Below are positions 586-29,875 of a stretch of DNA of 37,835 nucleotides, in pieces; position 1 is the stretch's first letter; every line of letters starts with the position of its first letter. Source of the DNA: Gemmatimonadota bacterium (GTDB lineage: Bacteria > Orphanbacterota > Orphanbacteria > Orphanbacterales > Orphanbacteraceae); NCBI GenBank assembly GCA_020061515.1, contig JAGUYC010000258.1:1-37835 (forward strand), read 5' to 3'. The notes below the pieces were generated by a model. The model did not search any database, had not been told where the DNA came from, and was given only the letters and a program-made list of their open reading frames with translations. The translations under genes and the position numbers were made by a program.

Positions 586-1671
586 GTGAAGGTCGTCGGG
601 AAGAAAGTCGAGCGCGTCGCGGGACCCGTGCGCGGAAAAGCGTGGAGCGCGCGCGCCGCCCACACCGAGAGAAAGGGCGTGCTCCTTCGTCTCTACGATG
701 ACGAAGGGAGGATCGGTCTCGGCGAGGCGAGCCCGCTCCCCGGGTTCTCGACCGACACGGTCGATCGTTGCGAGAAGACCCTCGCGGCTCTTTCCGCCGG
801 CGATCTTCCCGCGAGAGATCCGGAAGATCCTCTGGAGATCTGGCTCGAGTCCGCCGCGAGGCTCGTCGATCCGCGGGCGCCGGCGGCGCGATTCGCGCTC
901 GAGACGGCCCTTCTCGACCTGGCGGGCCAGGAGGAGCGGAAGCCGATTTCGGCCCTCTTCCGCGAGGAGGTTCCGGACCGCGCGATCCCTCTCGCGGCCC
1001 TCGCGCAAGAGGAGGAGTCGGACGCGCTCATCGAGGAGATCCGCGCGGCGAGGGCGCGCGGAATCTCCGTTGTGAAGCTGAAGATCGGAAAGCGGGGACG
1101 CTTCGACAAGGAGATCGAGCTTCTCCGAGGCGTCCGCCGCGCGTTCGGAGGCTCGCTTCGGATGCGGCTCGACGCGAACGGCTCCTGGGACCTCGTCGAG
1201 GCGAACGATCGGCTTCGCGCGCTCGCCGAGCTCGAGCCGGAGTTCGTCGAGCAGCCGGTCATTCCGTATCTCCTCCTCAAGATGGGGCCTTCGCCCGTTC
1301 CCCTCGCGGCGGACGAAACGCTCGCGCTTCCGGGCGCGGCCGAGCGGCTCTCCCTTGTCCCCGCGTGCCGCGTCTTTGTCTTGAAGCCGATGGTACTCGG
1401 CGGTTTCCTTCCGACCCTTCGCATCGCAAGGATCGGAAAGGCGAGAAAAGTCGGCCTCGTCGTGAGCCATCTCTTCGACGGGCCGGTCGCCCTCGCGGCC
1501 GCCGCGGAGCTCGCCCTCGCGCTCCCCGCGGAGCCGCTTGCGTGCGGCCTCGATCGGCACGCGGGTCTTTCGGCCTGGCCGGAGATTGCCGTGCCGCAGA
1601 TCCGCGAGAAGGAGATCCGCCGTTCTGGAGGCGCGGGGCTCGGCGTTCGCCTGGCGGAGGGAATTTCGTGA
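586..1671 (+). CDS. menC: o-succinylbenzoate synthase (enolase superfamily)
   Basis: GTG start at 586. Enolase-superfamily features: VVKLKIGKRG, RLDANGSWD, FVEQPV, ADET, VLKPMVLGG. Lies between menA and menE. Confidence 0.88.
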   Translation: MKVVGKKVERVAGPVRGKAWSARAAHTERKGVLLRLYDDEGRIGLGEASPLPGFSTDTVDRCEKTLAALSAGDLPARDPEDPLEIWLESAARLVDPRAPAARFALETALLDLAGQEERKPISALFREEVPDRAIPLAALAQEEESDALIEEIRAARARGISVVKLKIGKRGRFDKEIELLRGVRRAFGGSLRMRLDANGSWDLVEANDRLRALAELEPEFVEQPVIPYLLLKMGPSPVPLAADETLALPGAAERLSLVPACRVFVLKPMVLGGFLPTLRIARIGKARKVGLVVSHLFDGPVALAAAAELALALPAEPLACGLDRHAGLSAWPEIAVPQIREKEIRRSGGAGLGVRLAEGIS

Positions 1672-3062
1672 GCCTCTCGTTCTCTCGATCGGCGCGCGAG
1701 GCGCCGGAACGAACGGCGCTCGTTTCGGACGGAATCGCGTATACGTTCGAGGAGTTTCTTCCCTTCGTGAACGGCGCGCTCCATGCGCTCGCGGCGCGCG
1801 GGCTCCGGCCGGGAGACGCGCGACCGGTCGCGCTTCTTGCGTCGGCGCGAAAGGAGACGATCGCCTTTCTCTACGCGCTCTTCGATTGGGGGATTCCGGT
1901 CGTCCCCCTTCACGACACGCTCACGGAGCGCGAGCAGGGAAAGATTGTCGATCGGTGCGGGCCGATCGTTCAAATCGAAGGGACGCTCCCCGAGGCGCCT
2001 ACGGAGAGTGCCCCCTTCGAACCGCCGGAACCTCCGCCGGACGACGGGCGTCCTCTCGCGATCCTTCATACATCAGGGACCGGCGGAAAGCCGAAGGGGG
2101 TGATCCTGTCGCGGGCCGCCTTCGCGGCGAGCGCGGCGGCGAACGCGGAGAACCTCGGCTGGGAGAAAGAGGACCGCTGGGCGCTCGCGCTCCCTCTCGC
2201 GCACGTGGGCGGGTTCTCGATCGTGACGCGTTGTCTTCTCGCACGACGAGCGGTCGTTCTCGCCGGACCCTTCGCGGCCGACCGGCTCGCGCGAGCGATC
2301 GCGAAGGAACGCGCGACGCTCCTCTCCGCCGTGCCCGCGATGATCCGCCGACTTCTCGATCTCGAGCCGCGCTGGTCGCCTCCTTTCTGCCTGCGGGCGG
2401 TGCTCGTGGGAGGCGGTCCTCTATCCCCCGCGCTCCTCGACGAGGCGTGGGAGCGCGGGATTCCCGCGTATCCGACCTACGGGCTCACGGAAACTTGCTC
2501 GCAGGTCGCGGCCTGGCCCTATGGGACGAGACCGCCGCGTCCGGTCGCGCGTGCGCTCCCTGAAGCCGAGATCCGCGCGGCGGGCGAGCGGATTCAGGTT
2601 CGCGGGCCGATGCTCTTTACGTCGTATGTTTCCGCGGAGGGCGAGGCTTCTCCCTTCCTCGACGGAGGCTGGTTCGACACCGGGGATCTCGGGGCGATCG
2701 ACGAGGCGGGGTGCGTACATGTGTTCGGAAGATCGGACGAGATGCTCGTCACCGGCGGAGAGAACGTGAGCCCGCTCGAGGTGGAAGCGGAGATCGAGCG
2801 TTTCCCGGGAGTGCGCGCGGCGTGCGTGTTCGGAATTCCCGACGAAACGTGGGGGGACGTTCTCGCCGCGGCGATCGTCGTCGAGGGGGAAGGTCTCGAT
2901 TGCCCGACCCTCGCCGCGCATCTCGCCGCATCGCTGGCCCCGCACAAGCGTCCCAGAAGGATCGCGCGCCTCGACCGCCTTCCCCTCTCCCCGACCGGTA
3001 AGATCGACCGCGAAAAGGCGCGGTCTCTCGCCCTTCCTCTTCTCGAGCCGTTCCGGCCGTGA
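1668..3062 (+). CDS. menE: o-succinylbenzoate-CoA ligase (acyl-adenylate-forming enzyme)
   Basis: GTG at 1668 overlaps the menC TGA (GTGA). AMP-binding motifs ILHTSGTGGKPKGV, YGLTET, WFDTGDLG, C-terminal PTGKIDREK. Confidence 0.9.
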   Translation: MSLSFSRSAREAPERTALVSDGIAYTFEEFLPFVNGALHALAARGLRPGDARPVALLASARKETIAFLYALFDWGIPVVPLHDTLTEREQGKIVDRCGPIVQIEGTLPEAPTESAPFEPPEPPPDDGRPLAILHTSGTGGKPKGVILSRAAFAASAAANAENLGWEKEDRWALALPLAHVGGFSIVTRCLLARRAVVLAGPFAADRLARAIAKERATLLSAVPAMIRRLLDLEPRWSPPFCLRAVLVGGGPLSPALLDEAWERGIPAYPTYGLTETCSQVAAWPYGTRPPRPVARALPEAEIRAAGERIQVRGPMLFTSYVSAEGEASPFLDGGWFDTGDLGAIDEAGCVHVFGRSDEMLVTGGENVSPLEVEAEIERFPGVRAACVFGIPDETWGDVLAAAIVVEGEGLDCPTLAAHLAASLAPHKRPRRIARLDRLPLSPTGKIDREKARSLALPLLEPFRP

Positions 3063-3085
3063 GCGCGCCGAAGCGCCAAATGAAA

Positions 3086-3112
3086 ACCGGCGGAGCCGAT
3101 CGCCCCGCCGGT
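3086..3112. terminator. Bidirectional terminator-like hairpin between convergent genes
   Basis: Perfect 8-bp inverted repeat ACCGGCGG (3086-3093) / CCGCCGGT (3105-3112), with an A-rich run upstream and a T-rich run downstream, between menE (+) and the cytochrome gene (-). Confidence 0.6.
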
Positions 3113-3135
3113 CTCGTCTTTCTTCTCGCGCCGCC

Positions 3136-3777
3136 CTACTTCTCCGTCTCCTTGGCCTCCGCTTTCGGGACGGGGTGGGCGATCTTCGCGGAAAACGTCT
3201 TGAAGTCGAACGGTTTATACGTCGGCGATTTCTCGTTGTGGCAGGTTTTGCAGACCGCCTCGGTGGGCTCGATGAGGCCGACCGTGGCCGGCTCGATCTC
3301 CCCCGCGTAGAGCTGCTTCATGACGGTGAGCTTCTGGTATTCGCTCCCCGGGCCGTGGCACGCCTCGCAGCCGACTCCTTCGTCGTCCTTCACGCCCCCG
3401 CGGATCGCGGCCGGCTTCCCGTGAGCAGTCACGTGGCAGACGACGCACTCGGGCGCCTGCGCGGCGGGAACAGTGAGGCCTTTCTTCTTCGCGATCTCGT
3501 CCGCCTTCGGGGTCTTCAGCGTCTCGAACGCTTTGGCGTGCGCCGATTCCTGCCAAAGCTTGTACTGCGCGCCGCTCTTCGCGGTCTGGTGGCACATCTT
3601 GCATTTGGCGGAACCGATATGGGTGAAGGCCGGAGCGGCCTCCTTCTTCGCGATCTCCTTCGCCTCCGTTGATTTCCCCGCCTCTTGCGCCGTGAGCTGC
3701 GCGGCGAGGAAGAGGGTCGAAAGGCAGGCGGCGAGCCCGCCGAGCAGGATACCGTAGCGTCTGGATCTCCGGGTCAT
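3136..3777 (-). CDS. Exported tetraheme c-type cytochrome (cytochrome c-554/NapC-NrfB-like)
   Basis: Four CXXCH motifs (CKMCH, CVVCH, CEACH, CKTCH) after an N-terminal hydrophobic signal segment. Start chosen at MTRRSRRYG with GGAGG 6 nt upstream. Confidence 0.85.
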   Translation of the reverse strand: MTRRSRRYGILLGGLAACLSTLFLAAQLTAQEAGKSTEAKEIAKKEAAPAFTHIGSAKCKMCHQTAKSGAQYKLWQESAHAKAFETLKTPKADEIAKKKGLTVPAAQAPECVVCHVTAHGKPAAIRGGVKDDEGVGCEACHGPGSEYQKLTVMKQLYAGEIEPATVGLIEPTEAVCKTCHNEKSPTYKPFDFKTFSAKIAHPVPKAEAKETEK

Positions 3778-3957
3778 GCGCATCCTCCCTTTGTTGCCGG
3801 TCTTCCGGCGAATCTTGCCGCGGCGATTCCATCCACCGTCCCGATCGATTCTAGCGGGAACGGGCGGACCGCGCAACCGCTCGCCCCCGCCTCTTCTCCC
3901 GATGAAACGCCTCTCCTCCCGCCGCGGAGCTCGGCCCAGGCTCGCGCGCGCAAACTC

Positions 3958-5127
3958 TTATCGAAACGCCTCGAGGCCGGTCAGGTCGTTCCCCAGAATG
4001 AGCGTGTGGATGTCGTGCGTCCCCTCGTACGTCTTGACCCCCTCCAAGTTCAGCATGTGTCGGATCACGTGGTATTCGGACATGATCCCGTTGGCCGCGA
4101 GGATGTCGCGTGCGAGCCGCGCGCATTCGAGCGCCATGAACACGTTGTTCCGCTTCGCCATCGAGATCTGCGTGAAACGCGCCTTCCCCTCGTCCTGAAG
4201 ACGTCCGAGCCTGTGCGCGAGAAGCTGCGCTTTCGTGATCTCCGTCGCCATGTGCGCGAGCTTCTCCTGGACGAGCTGGAAAGAGGCGATCGGCTTCCCG
4301 AACTGCACGCGCTCCTTCGAGTACGCGAGCGCCCGATCGAGGCAGTCCGCTGCCGCTCCGACCGCGCCCCAGGCGATCCCGTAGCGCGCGCTGCTCAAAC
4401 ACTTGAGGGGCGAAGCGATTCCCTTCGACGCGGGAAGCAGGTTCTTCTCCGGAATCTCGCAGTTCTCGAAGATCAGCTCCGACGTGTCCGACGCGCGAAG
4501 CGAGAACTTTCCTCTTTGTTCGACCGCCCGGTAGCCGGGAGTTCCCTTCTCGACCAGGAAACCGCGGATCACGCCATCCAGCTTTGCCCAGACGATCGCG
4601 ATGTGCGCGGTCGACCCGTTCGTGATCCACATCTTCGCGCCGTTCAGGAGATAACCAGCGGATGTCTTCTCGGCGCGCGTGACGAGGCCGCCGGGATCCG
4701 AGCCGTAGTCCGGCTCCGTCAGGCCGAAGCACCCGATCGCCTCGCCGCGCGCCATTCGAGGGAGCCACTCCTTCTTCTGCTCCTCGCTTCCCGAGCCGTA
4801 GATCGCGAACATCGCGAGCGAACCCTGCACGGAGACGAAGCTCCGAAGCCCCGAATCGCCCCGCTCGAGCTCGCGGCAGATGACGCCGTACGCGGTCTTG
4901 CTCGTCCCCGCGCATCCGTACTCTTCCGGGAGGAAGCATCCGAAGAGGCCGAGAGACGCGAGCTCGGGGACGAGCTCCGCCGGAAAGGTGTGCTGTTCGA
5001 AGTGCTCGGCGATGATGGGAAGCACGCGATCGGTCACGAAGTCGCGGACGGTGTTCCGCACGAGGATCTCTTCATCGCTAAAGAGCTCGTCCACCTGGAA
5101 GTAGTCGATCGGTTGAAACTTGGGCAT
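3958..5127 (-). CDS. Acyl-CoA dehydrogenase, glutaryl-CoA dehydrogenase-like
   Basis: Full-length ACAD fold motifs: GCFGLTEPDYGSDPGG, LNGAKMWITNG, KERVQFGKPIASFQLVQ, C-terminal YEGTHDIHTLILGNDLTG typical of GCDH. Confidence 0.87.
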   Translation of the reverse strand: MPKFQPIDYFQVDELFSDEEILVRNTVRDFVTDRVLPIIAEHFEQHTFPAELVPELASLGLFGCFLPEEYGCAGTSKTAYGVICRELERGDSGLRSFVSVQGSLAMFAIYGSGSEEQKKEWLPRMARGEAIGCFGLTEPDYGSDPGGLVTRAEKTSAGYLLNGAKMWITNGSTAHIAIVWAKLDGVIRGFLVEKGTPGYRAVEQRGKFSLRASDTSELIFENCEIPEKNLLPASKGIASPLKCLSSARYGIAWGAVGAAADCLDRALAYSKERVQFGKPIASFQLVQEKLAHMATEITKAQLLAHRLGRLQDEGKARFTQISMAKRNNVFMALECARLARDILAANGIMSEYHVIRHMLNLEGVKTYEGTHDIHTLILGNDLTGLEAFR

Positions 5128-5361
5128 GGGCTTCCTCTCTCGGCGCGCGAAGGGGCGCTCGCCCGGAAGATTCGATTTCGATCGTCCCCGCGCCGCTGTC
5201 CCGCCGCGGGTATCCTCTTAAGGCTATCGTGCGTTCGCTCCTTCGTCAAACCGCCTCATAACCGGGGGACGCGCGGCATTCGTCGACCGGACGAGAACCC
5301 CCTGGTAGTATCTTCGAGGACCTCGCGGGAAGAGAAGCGGGCCGTGAACGGAGGAACGCGC

Positions 5362-7038
5362 ATGGGCCGGACGGTAATCCCCGTGACACTCGTCGTCCTC
5401 GCCGCGCTCTTCGTTCCCCTTCTCGGAATCCTTCCCCCCGCCCAATTCTTTCGCCTCGACGATTTCGCCTGGCTCACCTGGGCGAAGAGCCACGGTGTTT
5501 CCGATGCCTTCGATCCGGGAGAGGCGCCGGCGACGCCGGGCGGCCGCTTTCGCCCTGCTCACGCCCTCTTCTGGATCTTCGGGTCGCGCGCGTTCGGGCC
5601 GGAGTCGGCCGTCCCGTGGATGCTCCTCAGCTCGTCGTTCTTCGCGGCCGGTCTCGCGCTCATGCTTCTCTGGGGGGACCGGGTCGATCCCGGGAAGCCG
5701 CACGCGGGGAAATCCGCGGCGGCGATCTGGTTCGCCGGCTTCTTCCCGATGACCTATTTACTTCTCAATGTTTACAACAACGGGAAGACGATGGTTTTCC
5801 TTCTCGTCCCGCTCGCCGCGGCCTTCGGGATCTCGTTCTACGAGAGACGGCGGCCGCGCGATCTTCTCGTCTTCTTGTTCGCGTTCCTCGCCGGGGCGCT
5901 CGCCCGCGAATCGACGCTCGCGATCGTCCCCGCGGTTCTCTGCGTCTATGTTCTCGCCGATCGTTTCGAGCGAGGGAAGGCGTTTCTTCCGCTCGCGACG
6001 GCGGCGCTCCTCGCGGGAGGGGCGGTGATCGCGGGCGCCGCCGTTTTCTCCCCGCTCGTCCGCGAGACTCTCCGCGATCTCGGTGCGGGGAAGTCGTTCT
6101 CCCTCTGGAGCCGTAACCTGGCCTACTACGCGGAAACGCTCCTCTGGAACGGTCACGGGCGGTTCCTCTGGCTCGGCCTCGTCTTCGCGGCGTCTCTTCG
6201 GAGAACGAGGGCGCTCGCGATCGCGGCGGCCGCGGTGCTCGCGTCGGGTCTCGTCTTCCCGCGCCTCTCGCCGGTTCTCGTTCTCCTCGTTCTCCTCGCC
6301 TTCTGGTTCTCGCGAAGATCGAGAATCAACACCGCGCTTCTCGCGTGGTTCGCGGCGGCCTATCTCGTTCTTCTTCCGGCGCCGAACCCGACCGAATCCT
6401 ACTTCCTCGAGGCGTCTCTTCCCCTCGCGCTCTTCTTCGGCCTCGAGACGGGAGGCGCGCTCGCCGGGGTCGCCTCGCGTGCGGGAGGCGCGTTCCGACG
6501 GGGCGCGGGGCGAAAGTTCCGGACCTTCTTCGCGGCCTGGGGCGCGCTCGTTCTTCTCGCCGCGGTCTTCGCCGCCGGGGTCCACGCCGTCTACGCGCGC
6601 GAGCTTCTCCCGGTGAAGCGACACGGTCTCGATTTCGCCGAAGCGAATCGCTTCATGCGCAAAGAACTTCCCGAGGGGAGCGTCGTGTACGTCTTCCGCC
6701 AAGAGGAGATCTACGGAAAAGGGATGACCGAAACGATTCGCCGCTTCCGCCGTTTCTACCTCTGGAAGAACCATCCGGAGTGCTGGTTCGCCGCCTACAA
6801 CCGGCCGGACGTCCACGTCCTCTACTGGGACGGCGAACCCGAAGCCCGCCGGCCGGGGTTCTTCTTCGCCTCGAACCCGTTCGAGAAGGAAGTCTTCCGA
6901 AAGACGGATCCGGCGCCCGGCGCATCGCTCGTGTTCGAGAATCCGTCCTGCGCCGTTTACGACCTTCAGCCGGCGAGGGCGCGCCAGGGCGCGCCTTTGA
7001 CAGAAACGGCGGGAGATCCTATCCTTCCGGTGTCATGA
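5362..7038 (+). CDS. Multi-pass membrane protein, GT-C glycosyltransferase-like
   Basis: About a dozen hydrophobic segments. N-terminal FRLDDFAWLTWAKSHG loop resembles GT-C (PMT/ArnT-like) first loops. GGAGG upstream of ATG at 5362. The larger upstream open frame (3685-) is antisense to the dehydrogenase and not counted. Confidence 0.65.
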   Translation: MGRTVIPVTLVVLAALFVPLLGILPPAQFFRLDDFAWLTWAKSHGVSDAFDPGEAPATPGGRFRPAHALFWIFGSRAFGPESAVPWMLLSSSFFAAGLALMLLWGDRVDPGKPHAGKSAAAIWFAGFFPMTYLLLNVYNNGKTMVFLLVPLAAAFGISFYERRRPRDLLVFLFAFLAGALARESTLAIVPAVLCVYVLADRFERGKAFLPLATAALLAGGAVIAGAAVFSPLVRETLRDLGAGKSFSLWSRNLAYYAETLLWNGHGRFLWLGLVFAASLRRTRALAIAAAAVLASGLVFPRLSPVLVLLVLLAFWFSRRSRINTALLAWFAAAYLVLLPAPNPTESYFLEASLPLALFFGLETGGALAGVASRAGGAFRRGAGRKFRTFFAAWGALVLLAAVFAAGVHAVYARELLPVKRHGLDFAEANRFMRKELPEGSVVYVFRQEEIYGKGMTETIRRFRRFYLWKNHPECWFAAYNRPDVHVLYWDGEPEARRPGFFFASNPFEKEVFRKTDPAPGASLVFENPSCAVYDLQPARARQGAPLTETAGDPILPVS

Positions 7039-21762: not shown

Positions 21763-22260
21763 ATGCAAGGCGGCATTCGAGTCTTCGTGACGGGCGGAAC
21801 GTTCGACAAGGAGTACAACAAGATCACGGGCGAGCTCTACTTCAAGGACTCGCACGTGCTTCGCGTTCTCGAGCTTGGGCGCTGCCGCCTCGAGATCAAC
21901 GTGCGCACGCTGATGATGATCGACAGCCGGTCGATGACCGACGAGGACCGAGCGGTCATCGCGAAGAACTGCCGCTCGGCCGTGGAGGAGAGAATCGTCG
22001 TCACGCACGGCACCGACACGATGGTGGAGACCGCGAAGGTCCTCGCGCGGGAGGTGCAAGAAAAGACGATCGTCCTCACGGGAGCGATGACTCCCTACAC
22101 GTTCGGAAGCTCCGACGGTCTCTTCAACATGGGGAGCGCGCTCGCCTTCGTTCAGGCCCTTCCCCACGGCGTCTACATCGCCATGAACGGCCGGTACTTC
22201 GATTGGAACAACGTGAAGAAGAACAAGAAGACCGGCGAGTTCGAGGAGGTCGAGGGGTGA
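21763..22260 (+). CDS. Short asparaginase-like protein (N-terminal asparaginase domain only)
   Basis: VFVTGGTFDKEYN and VVTHGTDTMVETAK asparaginase motifs; 165 aa with no C-terminal domain. GGGGAGGG upstream of ATG 21763. Confidence 0.8.
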   Translation: MQGGIRVFVTGGTFDKEYNKITGELYFKDSHVLRVLELGRCRLEINVRTLMMIDSRSMTDEDRAVIAKNCRSAVEERIVVTHGTDTMVETAKVLAREVQEKTIVLTGAMTPYTFGSSDGLFNMGSALAFVQALPHGVYIAMNGRYFDWNNVKKNKKTGEFEEVEG

Positions 22261-22334: not shown

Positions 22335-22528
22335 GGGTGCGGTACAGCACTCCGCACCCTTGCGACGAAAACGCGTGCCTCATCCGGGCTGGGACGCGAG
22401 CCGACCTGCCTGTGCAGGACACGCAGACAGGTTCCGGTTCGCACCGCCGATCTCGCCGTGCCCTTGGTCCGATAAGCTCTCGGTGACGACCCTCGATCGG
22501 TGCTCGGTGCGGAGCCCGATCTCCGCAC
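22335..22528. repeat. Palindrome-rich non-coding patch
   Basis: GGGTGCGG/CCGCACCC (22335-22342, 22352-22359), CCTGC-ctgt-GCAGG near 22405, GTGCGGAG/CTCCGCAC (22507-22514, 22521-22528). No credible coding frame. Confidence 0.5.
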
Positions 22529-22726
22529 TCACTTGGAAGCGAAGACAGACCGTCGAGATGGACCGGACATCCTCGACGCCTCTCTCAAGGACGGCGGCTC
22601 AGGGAAGTCTTTTCACTTGCGCCCGTGGGCCTTATAAGAGTTAGGCCACTGGCTGCATCAAGACCGATCTTCAGCAGGCTGCGTCACCAGTGCCGCCCAG
22701 CTGGAAAGCCGGACGAACCAGCCTTG

Positions 22727-23332
22727 TCACCTGTGGAGCGACTTGATGCGGCCCCAGCTGCACTGCTCCCAACTGACGGGAGACCCGGACCCATCAACGC
22801 CAGTGGGGAGTCCGGACCACTCAATCACGTACCCTCGCAGCGAGTTCGCGATAGGAGCATCGTTCCAAGTAGATCCCGGTGTCAGGGCACCAACGTTGGT
22901 GTTCGTGAAGAAGTGCAGCCGGTCCTCGTTCCCGCCGGAGTTGTTGGGTTCTGTCGCAGCCCAGTTCGTGAAGATCCAAGGTTCTTCGGTCACCCATCGC
23001 CAGTGCCCAGCCGGCTCCGCACCGCTGTCGAACTGGTATCCCCCAAGCCATGGCCCGAAGGAGTACTCAAAGGGCGCGATGCCGAGATACCAGAACTGCG
23101 GAGCAGCCACCAGGCTGAAGATGAAGCCGTTCTCGGCATCCGACGTCGACGTCGCCAAGTAGCCCCCGACAGCCTCCGCCGCAATGCTGGCGTCATCCCA
23201 GGTGATCCCAGCGGGGACATGTACTGCCTCGTACCAGTGGTCGTTCTCGCTCCACTGGATCGGTGCGGAGCGTCCTGCGGAAGGGACGGCGAGGGCGGAG
23301 ATGGTCAACAGGCACACAATCAAGCTTCTCAT
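22727..23332 (-). CDS. Secreted C-type-lectin-domain (CTLD) protein
   Basis: Signal peptide MRSLIVCLLTISALAVPSAGRSAP; CTLD signatures ITWDDASIAAEAVGGYLATSTSDAENGFIFSLV, WLGGYQ, WRWVTEEPWIFTNWAATEPNNSGGNEDRLHF. GAGAGG RBS. Confidence 0.8.
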   Translation of the reverse strand: MRSLIVCLLTISALAVPSAGRSAPIQWSENDHWYEAVHVPAGITWDDASIAAEAVGGYLATSTSDAENGFIFSLVAAPQFWYLGIAPFEYSFGPWLGGYQFDSGAEPAGHWRWVTEEPWIFTNWAATEPNNSGGNEDRLHFFTNTNVGALTPGSTWNDAPIANSLRGYVIEWSGLPTGVDGSGSPVSWEQCSWGRIKSLHR

Positions 23333-23443
23333 GGCACACCTCTCGTGAATCTGGTGAACCGTCGAGCTCCCGTGGTTCCAACGCACGCAGTACCCAAGCT
23401 CCCGGCTCGCCGCCCACGCGGGCGCTGGGGTAGTAGGCCAGTG

Positions 23444-23511
23444 GCCTAACGACAGCCATAACCCGCGGACGTAGCGAAGCGGAGTCCGACGGGTTCATGG
23501 CATTGTTATGC
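23444..23511 (-). other. Putative integron attC recombination site
   Basis: On the minus strand: GCATAAC (R'') - AAT - GCCAT(G)AACCCG(T)CGGAC - 13-nt loop - GTCCGCGGGTTATGGC - TGTC - GTTAGGC (R'). The 16-bp stem has two extrahelical bases separated by 6 nt on the R''-side arm. The upstream gene's TAA lies in R''. Confidence 0.72.
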
Positions 23512-24483
23512 CTCTAGTGTATCCCATGTGACTCCCAACAGCTTGGCGAGACGTACATCCCTTCGGTGTCGGCGAAAACTAACACCGAGGAGAACACAAG
23601 GGAGAACGACATACAGCAGCCCGACACTCACCATCAACACATAGTGAAGGGGACGTGCCACCTTCTTGCATCGTTCAGGACCCCCGAGGCTATTGACGAC
23701 AAACTCCCGAGCGGGAACCTCGCGCCGGTACTTCCCGTCAAGCGATCGTACTCGGACCGAGCCATCTTCGCGTGGTACGGCGGTTACCTCACGCACCGTG
23801 CCAGGCGGGTCCTCGTATTTGTACATCACCCGTGTGCCGACAAATGGAGATGGCGACACGAAGAAGAAGAACACAAACATCGCAGCACCACTGAGGCACA
23901 TTACCAGCGACATCAAGAGGCGCCTGCGCCATCGGCGCGGGTTGCCCAAGGCGGTTCTCCGAATGGGCTGCGTGTCGCGGATACGGTGCGCGAATGAGAG
24001 TGCTGCGCGAAAGCCGGCGTGGGTCCTCTTTTTCGCCTCCGGGGACATACTGGCGAGTGCCTGGAAACGAACGAACTCACCACAGCGTAGGAGATCGGGC
24101 TCCACGGCAAGCTCCGAAGTTCCCGGGTCCGAAACGCCTAGCACAACGTCTGGAGAGTGGCCGATAACAGAGCGCCCGAGCCACTTGCAGTCCTGGGGGA
24201 GGGAGAGTGTGATAGGCTTTGCGGTCATCACGCGGGTTAAGTCCACTCTTCCAGTGTTGACGACTGCACCGCGGATCAGAACGACGTCGGGGCTGATCGG
24301 CTTGTCCTGATACGTGATGGCAATGTCCGGCAAGTTCTCGACAATGTCGTCGAAGAGCCAGATCACCGACTCGGAAACAAAGGTGATCTCGCCGGGATAG
24401 CGGCGTTGAAGCGCGAGATACAGTCCCCATCCTCCGAGAATGACGGTCACGACGATTCCCGCGACTGTGAGCACAGTGTTCAT
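23506..24483 (-). CDS. Orphan membrane protein of unknown function (putative cassette gene)
   Basis: ATG 24483 with GGAGG upstream, 325 aa. N-terminal TM anchor, soluble domain (ITFVSESVIWLFDDIVENLPDIAITYQDKPISPDVVLIRGAVVNTG), then two further TM segments. No family recognised. Confidence 0.7.
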   Translation of the reverse strand: MNTVLTVAGIVVTVILGGWGLYLALQRRYPGEITFVSESVIWLFDDIVENLPDIAITYQDKPISPDVVLIRGAVVNTGRVDLTRVMTAKPITLSLPQDCKWLGRSVIGHSPDVVLGVSDPGTSELAVEPDLLRCGEFVRFQALASMSPEAKKRTHAGFRAALSFAHRIRDTQPIRRTALGNPRRWRRRLLMSLVMCLSGAAMFVFFFFVSPSPFVGTRVMYKYEDPPGTVREVTAVPREDGSVRVRSLDGKYRREVPAREFVVNSLGGPERCKKVARPLHYVLMVSVGLLYVVLPCVLLGVSFRRHRRDVRLAKLLGVTWDTLEA

Positions 24484-24508
24484 GAGTCGAACTCGCGCCT
24501 CCGTTGTG

Positions 24509-24626
24509 GCATAACTACTATTCGACAGTTCCACGATAATAGATCTCCATGCGACGGAATGCAAGATATCCGGGGACGCGGGCATGGGCTTGGCCGTGGA
24601 ACATACTGCGGAGCAGACAGTTACAT
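24509..24626 (-). other. Possible degenerate attC-like site upstream of the orphan membrane protein gene
   Basis: On the plus strand: GCATAAC (24509-24515), then nested arms GTTCCACG/CGTGGAAC (24528-24535, 24595-24602) and CCATGC/GCATGG (24547-24552, 24582-24587), then GTTACAT (24620-24626). Larger internal loops than a canonical site. Confidence 0.35.
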
Positions 24627-24890
24627 GTTCGGCCCCCCGCGGGCCTGGCGGGATCGACCGCGAGCTCCGCCCGCGTAGCTGGACAAACATGGGCGGGGCC
24701 GGCGGTTCGCATGTCGGATCGCCGCGGGGGGGTTCGGGGCGATCTTCTCGTGTCCGCGTCGGCCCATCCGATCGAGACGCCTCGGGACATCCGCAAGGCC
24801 GCTTCCGAGGACGGGGAAGAAGTCCTTGCGGGGCGGAGGTTGAAGATCCGAATGAGAGAGCCCCGGGCGCCGGTCCACGGCTCCACTCCC

Positions 24891-25415
24891 CTACTCGCAA
24901 TACTCCCGCCGGCCGCAGGAGTCGCAGAGGGCCCCGGACCAGATCTCTTCGAAGATCGATGCGTGAAGGCGGACGGTCGCCGGGTCGCTCGTCGCGAACC
25001 CGATCTCGAAGTTCCGCCGCTCCGGCTTCTTGACGCCGATCCCGGCCCCGGTGAAGTTCGCGCTTCCCGCGTAAAGAAACGCGGCGTCCACGAGAACCAT
25101 CTTGAGATGAGCGCGGGGGCAGAAGAGCATCTCGAAGCGCTCGCTCGACGAGAGAACGGGGCTTCCGCCGATCTCCTCGCGGAATCTCCGCGACGGGGGC
25201 GCGCCGTGCAGGATCCGGATCGACACGCCGCGCTCCGCCATCTCCTCGAAGGCGCGAACGATCGAGACGTAACGTTTCCCTTTCCGAATTCGGATCTCCT
25301 TGACGTTCGCCGTCGCGATCCGAACGGACTCCCGCGCCGCGAGGATCCCTTCCTCGACCACGGTCGCGTAGTGCTCGTCGTCTCGGATGAAGCGGATCGG
25401 CGGAGCTCCGGTCAT
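24891..25415 (-). CDS. Phospholipase D-like domain protein
   Basis: HLKMVLVDAAFLYAGSANFTGAG (HxK...GSxNF PLD motif); C-terminal CDSCGRREYC. ATGA overlap with the upstream phosphatase gene. Confidence 0.82.
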   Translation of the reverse strand: MTGAPPIRFIRDDEHYATVVEEGILAARESVRIATANVKEIRIRKGKRYVSIVRAFEEMAERGVSIRILHGAPPSRRFREEIGGSPVLSSSERFEMLFCPRAHLKMVLVDAAFLYAGSANFTGAGIGVKKPERRNFEIGFATSDPATVRLHASIFEEIWSGALCDSCGRREYCE

Positions 25416-29143: not shown

Positions 29144-29694
29144 ACGCGGGGGCGGGACCTCTCCTCCGCGTCTACGCCGGCGCGCTCTTCGAGCTGGCTC
29201 GCGAGGCGGGGAAGCTCGAGGAGCGAAAGGCGGAAGCGCAGCTCTTTCTCGATGCTCTCGATCGAGAGAGGCGCATCGGGAAGATCCTCGTTTCTCCGAG
29301 GGTGACGGCGGCGCGCAAAACCGCCTTCATCCACGAGGTTCTCGGCGACCTTTTCTCGCGAGACCTTCGAAGCTTCGTTCTTCTCCTCGTCGAGAAGAAT
29401 CGGCAGGTCTTCCTGCGTGAAATGCTCGAGACGTTCGTCGAGCTGTGCGAAGAAGAATTGGGAGACCTGCGCGGACGCGTATCGACGGCCGTCCCGCTCG
29501 CGGAAGAGGACGCGGCCGTCCTCGCCGAGGAGCTTTCAAGGCGCGCCGGCAGACGCGTGCTTCTCGAGAAGACCGTGGACCCGAGGCTTCTCGGGGGCGC
29601 GGTTCTCCGAATCGGAGACCGCCTCGCGGACGGAAGCCTCCGAAGGCGTATTGGGGAGCTTAGAAGGAGACTTCTCGCTTCGTCCGGAACTTAG
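29140..29694 (+). CDS. atpH: F1 ATP synthase subunit delta
   Basis: GTG start overlapping the atpF stop; RVYAGALFELAREAGKLEE... and VDPRLLGGAVLRIGDRLADGSLRRRIGELRRRL. Confidence 0.93.
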   Translation: MNAGAGPLLRVYAGALFELAREAGKLEERKAEAQLFLDALDRERRIGKILVSPRVTAARKTAFIHEVLGDLFSRDLRSFVLLLVEKNRQVFLREMLETFVELCEEELGDLRGRVSTAVPLAEEDAAVLAEELSRRAGRRVLLEKTVDPRLLGGAVLRIGDRLADGSLRRRIGELRRRLLASSGT

Positions 29695-29875
29695 CCTAGA
29701 TGATGCACGCGTTTTCGTCGCGAGGATGCGGAGCGCGTGCCGAGAGGCCGACCTGGACGAGCCGCTCCCGGAATCGTAGTCTGGGCACTACGATGAGGAA
29801 GCGGCGAAGGAAGAGAGGCTTCGTAGGCCGCGAGCCGCAGCCGCAGTTGGAAACGCGTGCACAATCTAGGCTAAG
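29690..29875. mobile_element. MITE-like element with terminal inverted repeats between atpH and atpA
   Basis: Left CTTAGCCTAGATGATGCACGCGT (29690-29712) and right ACGCGTGCACAATCTAGGCTAAG (29853-29875) are inverted repeats matching at 21/23. Central hairpin GCCGCT...ATCGTAG-tctgggca-CTACGAT...AGCGGC (29761-29805). No credible ORF. Confidence 0.6.

Follow-up and report, generated by a model that had tools for sequence, protein, structure and literature searches.

A probable integrase-less integron platform, with an attI copy and two cassettes, in the genome of a Gemmatimonadota bacterium

Introduction

How does a hairpin with the features of an integron attC site come to lie between two genes in a stretch of chromosome that carries no integrase gene? 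Integrons are described as one integrase, one adjacent attI site and an array of cassettes, and arrays that lack an integrase are regarded as remnants (CALINs). The integrase, IntI, acts at G|TT and recombines double-stranded attI with the bottom strand of an attC site in its folded form. The locus considered here was found in a window of 37,835 nt, meaning the whole stretch of DNA that was analysed, from the 3.32-Mb genome G000. A preliminary description, made from the letters of the window, had proposed an attC site, cassette capture and a CALIN-like arrangement. The comparisons reported below, all with draft, metagenome-type assemblies, lead to the reading, given a probability of roughly 0.8, that 22641-24709 on the minus strand would be an integrase-less integron platform composed of an attI copy and two cassettes, with a single IntI most likely acting on it in trans. 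The features of the locus are as follows.

24891..25412, minus strand: PLD-like flanking chromosomal gene, syntenic in contig C18 of the sister species G001
24513..24709, minus strand: solo attI region, a repeat of about 197 bp resembling the intI-attI intergenic region of contig C261, without intI (blastn)
75 nt ending at the crossover G24515|T24514, minus strand: conserved attI, identical to the C261 attI at 71 of 75 positions
23450..24514, minus strand: cassette 1, from TTATGC through the G of R', starting at the attI crossover
23506..24483, minus strand: cassette 1 ORF, 325 aa, with its TAA stop within R''
23444..23511, minus strand: attC of cassette 1, with R'' GCATAAC (23511-23505), a 16-bp bulged stem and R' GTTAGGC (23450-23444) (covariance model, folding)
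22641..23449, minus strand: cassette 2, with limits TTAGGCCACTGGC ... GCCAGTGGCCTAA
22727..23332, minus strand: cassette 2 ORF, 201 aa, with a signal-peptide-like N-terminus
22347..22640, minus strand: dispersed 3' repeat, starting where the RYYYAAC of cassette 2, the last one, ends
21766..22260, plus strand: flanking chromosomal gene of the asparaginase N-terminal family, with an ortholog at the end of G001 contig C52

The hairpin as the attC site of cassette 1

Read on the minus strand from 23511 to 23444, the hairpin runs GCATAAC-AATGCCATgAACCCGtCGGAC...GTCCGCGGGTTATGGCTGTC-GTTAGGC, and the earlier account proved exact for the sequence, for the arms and the bulges, for R' and R'', and for the TAA stop within R''. 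As in attC sites, R'' and R' enclose an imperfect palindrome, one arm of which has extrahelical bases, R'' being off by one base. The site was scored with R1, a purpose-built covariance model of 24 aligned attC seeds from unrelated bacteria, which were chosen by a motif-and-stem scan of contigs that carry relatives of the G000 integrase in other bacteria; the attC scores given here come from R1, not from the IntegronFinder or HattCI models. With filters off, 23444-23511 on the minus strand reached 38.1 bits (E 3.4e-7) versus 12.1 bits for the next-best position in the window, and the suggestion that an attC covariance model would recover the hairpin was thus confirmed with R1. Because the opposite strand of the same interval scored 8.4 bits, the polarity of the hairpin is attC-like. 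It is also the top-scoring attC across G000, followed by C78:2174-2231 and then by C261:3053-3115.

Folded as single-stranded DNA, the hairpin surpassed 200 of 200 shuffles on both strands (z of -3.9 for the top and -4.5 for the bottom), the bottom strand being slightly more stable. In a scan for RYYYAAC/GTTRRRY plus a stem of matched length, none of 150 simulated one-strand windows yielded a site of equal quality, and nothing in an Rfam search matched the hairpin. Two details of the preliminary description take on a different meaning. GCATAAC does depart from RYYYAAC by one base, but this is no defect, because R'' exactly complements the first bases of the cassette to which it belongs (G|TTATGC, 24515-24509), as it should in a cassette. 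The bulged C and A on the bottom strand, regarded earlier as unusual in place of G and T, are not so, since other attC sites in the comparison have G at the first bulge of the top strand. By its covariance score and predicted fold, 23444-23511 on the minus strand is a genuine integron attC site.

An attI copy upstream of the array

What had been missed is a copy of attI upstream of the array. By blastn, 24709-24513 on the minus strand shares 81% identity with C261 2042-2228, the interval from the intI stop to the first cassette, and 86% with 794-982 of contig C78. Both alignments end at ...GAATAGTAG|TT, within a base, and the cassettes beyond differ; the similarity of the window attI ends exactly at the G|TT crossover at which cassette 1 starts. 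The window site is a copy of the C261 attI, a conserved site ending in G|TT that lies next to intI in a complete integron, and the same motif adjoins intI in contigs C80 of G001 and C28 of G005. At the window locus, the repeat begins about 47 bp past the point equivalent to the intI end in C261. No integrase ORF was found in this region of the window, where the nearest gene upstream is the PLD-like gene, and the locus is thus not a complete integron, in which intI adjoins attI and cassettes.

The statement that there is no integrase holds for the window but not for the genome. The search for IntI that had been proposed found a full-length integron integrase on C261 (TIGR02249 of NCBIfam, 478.7 bits, cut-off 265), so that an integron-type integrase is present in the same genome. 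Among solved structures, Vibrio cholerae IntI (2a3v) is the nearest, aligning over residues 54-365, nearly the whole length. The G001 intI gene stands in the same context as that of G000, behind an EamA-type gene and a 101-aa gene and with syntenic flanks, and in G005, which belongs to the same family, the integron is canonical, with intI followed by an attI ending in AATAGTAG|TT and by attC-bearing cassettes. The sister species also has a second integron integrase gene, truncated by the contig (G001:C171 4-330). A second intI near some platform on other contigs could exist in principle, as this truncated gene illustrates, and the C261 integrase could be silent. Positions 3122-3134 of C261, at the contig end, are Illumina adapter sequence (AGATCGGAAGAGC), and the last attC end of C261 may therefore be an assembly artefact.

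Cassettes and the 3' repeat

The start of cassette 1 and its R'' share 8 complementary nt. The ORF has no family in Pfam, NCBIfam or PADLOC, and its product is a predicted membrane-type protein, judging from the two or three hydrophobic segments seen by eye. Cassette 2 starts with TTAGGCCACTGGC and ends with GCCAGTGGCCTAAC, which are perfectly complementary over 14 nt, and no attC hairpin follows its R''. Its ORF matches C-type lectin weakly (20.7 bits, under the 22.6 cut-off), and its product is predicted to be a secreted-type protein of no confident family. End complementarity of 7-14 nt was found in 13 of the 14 cassettes compared from G000, G001, G002, G004 and G005, C78 c1 having been re-read in register by one base.

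The 3' repeat behind cassette 2 has about 10 copies in G000, 7 in G001 and 2 in G004, and with few exceptions one end is fixed at AAC while the far end is ragged. In the arrays of G000 contig C312 and G001 contig C14, the repeat is followed by an apparent L'-R' half of an attC site, as if it had substituted for the L'' arm. It does not occur at the window locus in G001, within the assembled part, or in plasmids or integron contigs of other phyla. Nothing in Rfam matched it and no attC-like structure appeared when it was folded. Identification as a group II intron of class C-attC was rejected, as Rfam matched no intron, G000 has no reverse transcriptase and the RTs of G001 have no copy of the repeat beside them.

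The same locus in the sister species

The PLD-like gene has an ortholog in G001 (90% aa) whose flanking DNA is 89% identical over 4.9 kb, and behind this ortholog, at C18 49333-49351, lies an attI site orthologous to that of the window. It is followed by a 335-bp cassette, apparently without a gene, which has its own attC and is present in at least two tandem copies before the contig ends. The asparaginase ortholog at the end of C52 adjoins the same 335-bp cassette and attC, closing G|TTAGGC. The same PLD/asparaginase interval thus holds wholly different cassettes in G001, and turnover between the two species has therefore been complete. Together with the attC site and the attI junction, this difference in content bears out the proposal of cassette capture within a core chromosomal region, and it excludes the opposing case of a fixed two-gene operon with a terminator. 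The 335-bp cassette also stands first behind the integrase-linked attI of G001 (92 of 94 identical over the available part), so that an attI with intI beside it and an attI lacking intI share a cassette in this genome. In G004, which belongs to another genus, no attI lies behind the PLD gene.

Elsewhere in the window, an insertion of about 180 bp (29694-29874) is missing at the orthologous site of G001:C18; since it is 87% identical to G001:C14 5688-5876, it is a small dispersed repeat.

Other attI copies and their divergence

G000 contains three strong attI copies; the cassette behind each is different and always starts at the same G|TT. The attI pattern read backwards had no match in G000 or G001. 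At C78 of G000 an attI-like site precedes cassettes, and attI-like sites with cassettes are found also at G001:C127 and G002:C7. Contigs C312 and C177 are probably further attI platforms of G000, in a diverged form, and the copy at C269 is degenerate. The C78 array encodes a CAP12/Pycsar-type TIR-domain protein and a TmtA-like protein (1306-5594), cargo that looks like anti-phage defence.

Several features were observed beside these sites. The integrase-less array of C78 lies between 89-bp direct repeats (98.9%; 354-442 and 5830-5918) that match the end of an ORF. At about 8200-9100 of C312, an IS110-type element is seen by eye beside a possible attC, recalling IS1111-attC insertions. In G002:C7 (about 840-2104, minus strand), the attI-like site is followed by a cassette that is seemingly far richer in A+T than its surroundings and has a long attC, which suggests recent capture from a distant donor.

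Of 75 attI positions, 67-71 are shared between copies within G000 and 64 between the two copies within G001, compared with only 53 between the window attI and its G001 ortholog, in spite of 89% identity in the DNA around them. The simplest reading of this pattern would be homogenisation of attI within each genome, or selection to match the local integrase.

Interpretation and alternative explanations

An attI copy held at an orthologous place, with other cassettes, in G001 points to an integrase-less attI platform. The IntI encoded on C261 would act in trans on the dispersed attI copies, for which the common cassette in G001 is indirect support, and the folded bottom strand of an incoming attC would recombine with double-stranded attI in the window as at the C261 attI. 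Recombination, gene conversion or selection to match the integrase may keep the attI copies of one genome alike. A broader proposal, to which slightly less than an even chance is given, is a one-to-many integron: a single chromosomal IntI would serve several scattered integrase-free attI platforms, with attI evolving in concert within a genome and co-diverging with the integrase, and the oppositely facing 3' repeat, with its fixed RYYYAA|C, may be a boundary or acceptor at the far end of many arrays.

The best surviving alternative, unlikely as it is, holds that the locus is a formerly complete integron that lost intI and is now a decaying remnant, an ordinary CALIN that has retained its attI. 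Chromosomal integrons, those of Xanthomonas among them, commonly lose intI (PMC12444791), and both the lack of an attC behind cassette 2 and the degenerate C269 copy fit with decay. However, no trace of intI is present at this locus in either species, the PLD gene lying directly upstream and the repeat beginning beyond the position of the intI stop; an intact-looking intI is retained in the same genome; and the G001 copy has a cassette in common with the integrase-linked attI.

It is very improbable that IntI placed the cassettes at a non-classical genomic attG site with no attI (Loot et al., 2024). IntI1 is said to insert cassettes at many genomic sites, as relayed in PMC12444791 and PMC12901181, but homology to the integrase-linked attI extends over some 190 bp before the crossover, far beyond an attG core, and this long homology refutes attG at the window locus; attG insertion may have been a route for the first spread of attI copies. 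Still less credence is due to an assembly or binning artefact that joined a foreign integron fragment to the contig: the assembly is a draft and C261 ends in adapter, but the PLD-attI junction recurs at the orthologous place, with other cassettes, in the independent G001 assembly, and the intI flanks are likewise syntenic between G000 and G001. A hairpin due to chance, or an intrinsic terminator separating two ordinary genes, which the position of the hairpin after a stop codon might suggest, is refuted by the covariance score and its strand polarity, the complementary cassette ends, the crossover-precise attI junction and the content of the G001 locus, and the hairpin has no T-run and is absent from the terminator scan output.

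Significance and comparison with known systems

An integrase-less platform of this kind would mean that the acceptor site itself has been multiplied and that its copies stay in orthologous positions on the chromosome even as the cassettes behind them are replaced. Should several platforms be supplied by a single IntI, such genomes would capture cassettes at more than one locus. Standard tools would overlook these platforms, since they depend on at least two attC sites or on an attI of known class. Co-evolution of attI with the integrase becomes testable. In the open-access literature, no description was found of a genome with several scattered attI copies that lack intI.

The system resembles a sedentary chromosomal integron in having an IntI of the integron subfamily, an attI with a G|TT crossover, and attC cassettes with complementary ends, but differs in that the window attI and cassettes lie on a contig other than that of intI and that several attI copies are scattered in the genome. 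Integrase-less arrays at conserved loci are already known as CALINs, and the window locus is like those of Xanthomonas in its attC-bearing cassettes without a neighbouring intI at a conserved chromosomal position (PMC12444791). The term CALIN-like was apt insofar as no integrase gene is nearby; however, CALINs are defined by attC alone, with a default threshold of two sites in IntegronFinder (PMC12444791), whereas the window array has one attC and is anchored at attI. As in attG insertion (Loot et al., 2024), the cassettes lie outside the integrase-linked integron, but the window acceptor has long attI homology instead of a short degenerate core. Finally, cassette 2 keeps R'' and has no attC hairpin, as in cassettes with truncated attC or delta-attI (Partridge 2009 types; PMC12901181), but here the hairpin is replaced by a dispersed repeat that is present after many last cassettes in the family.
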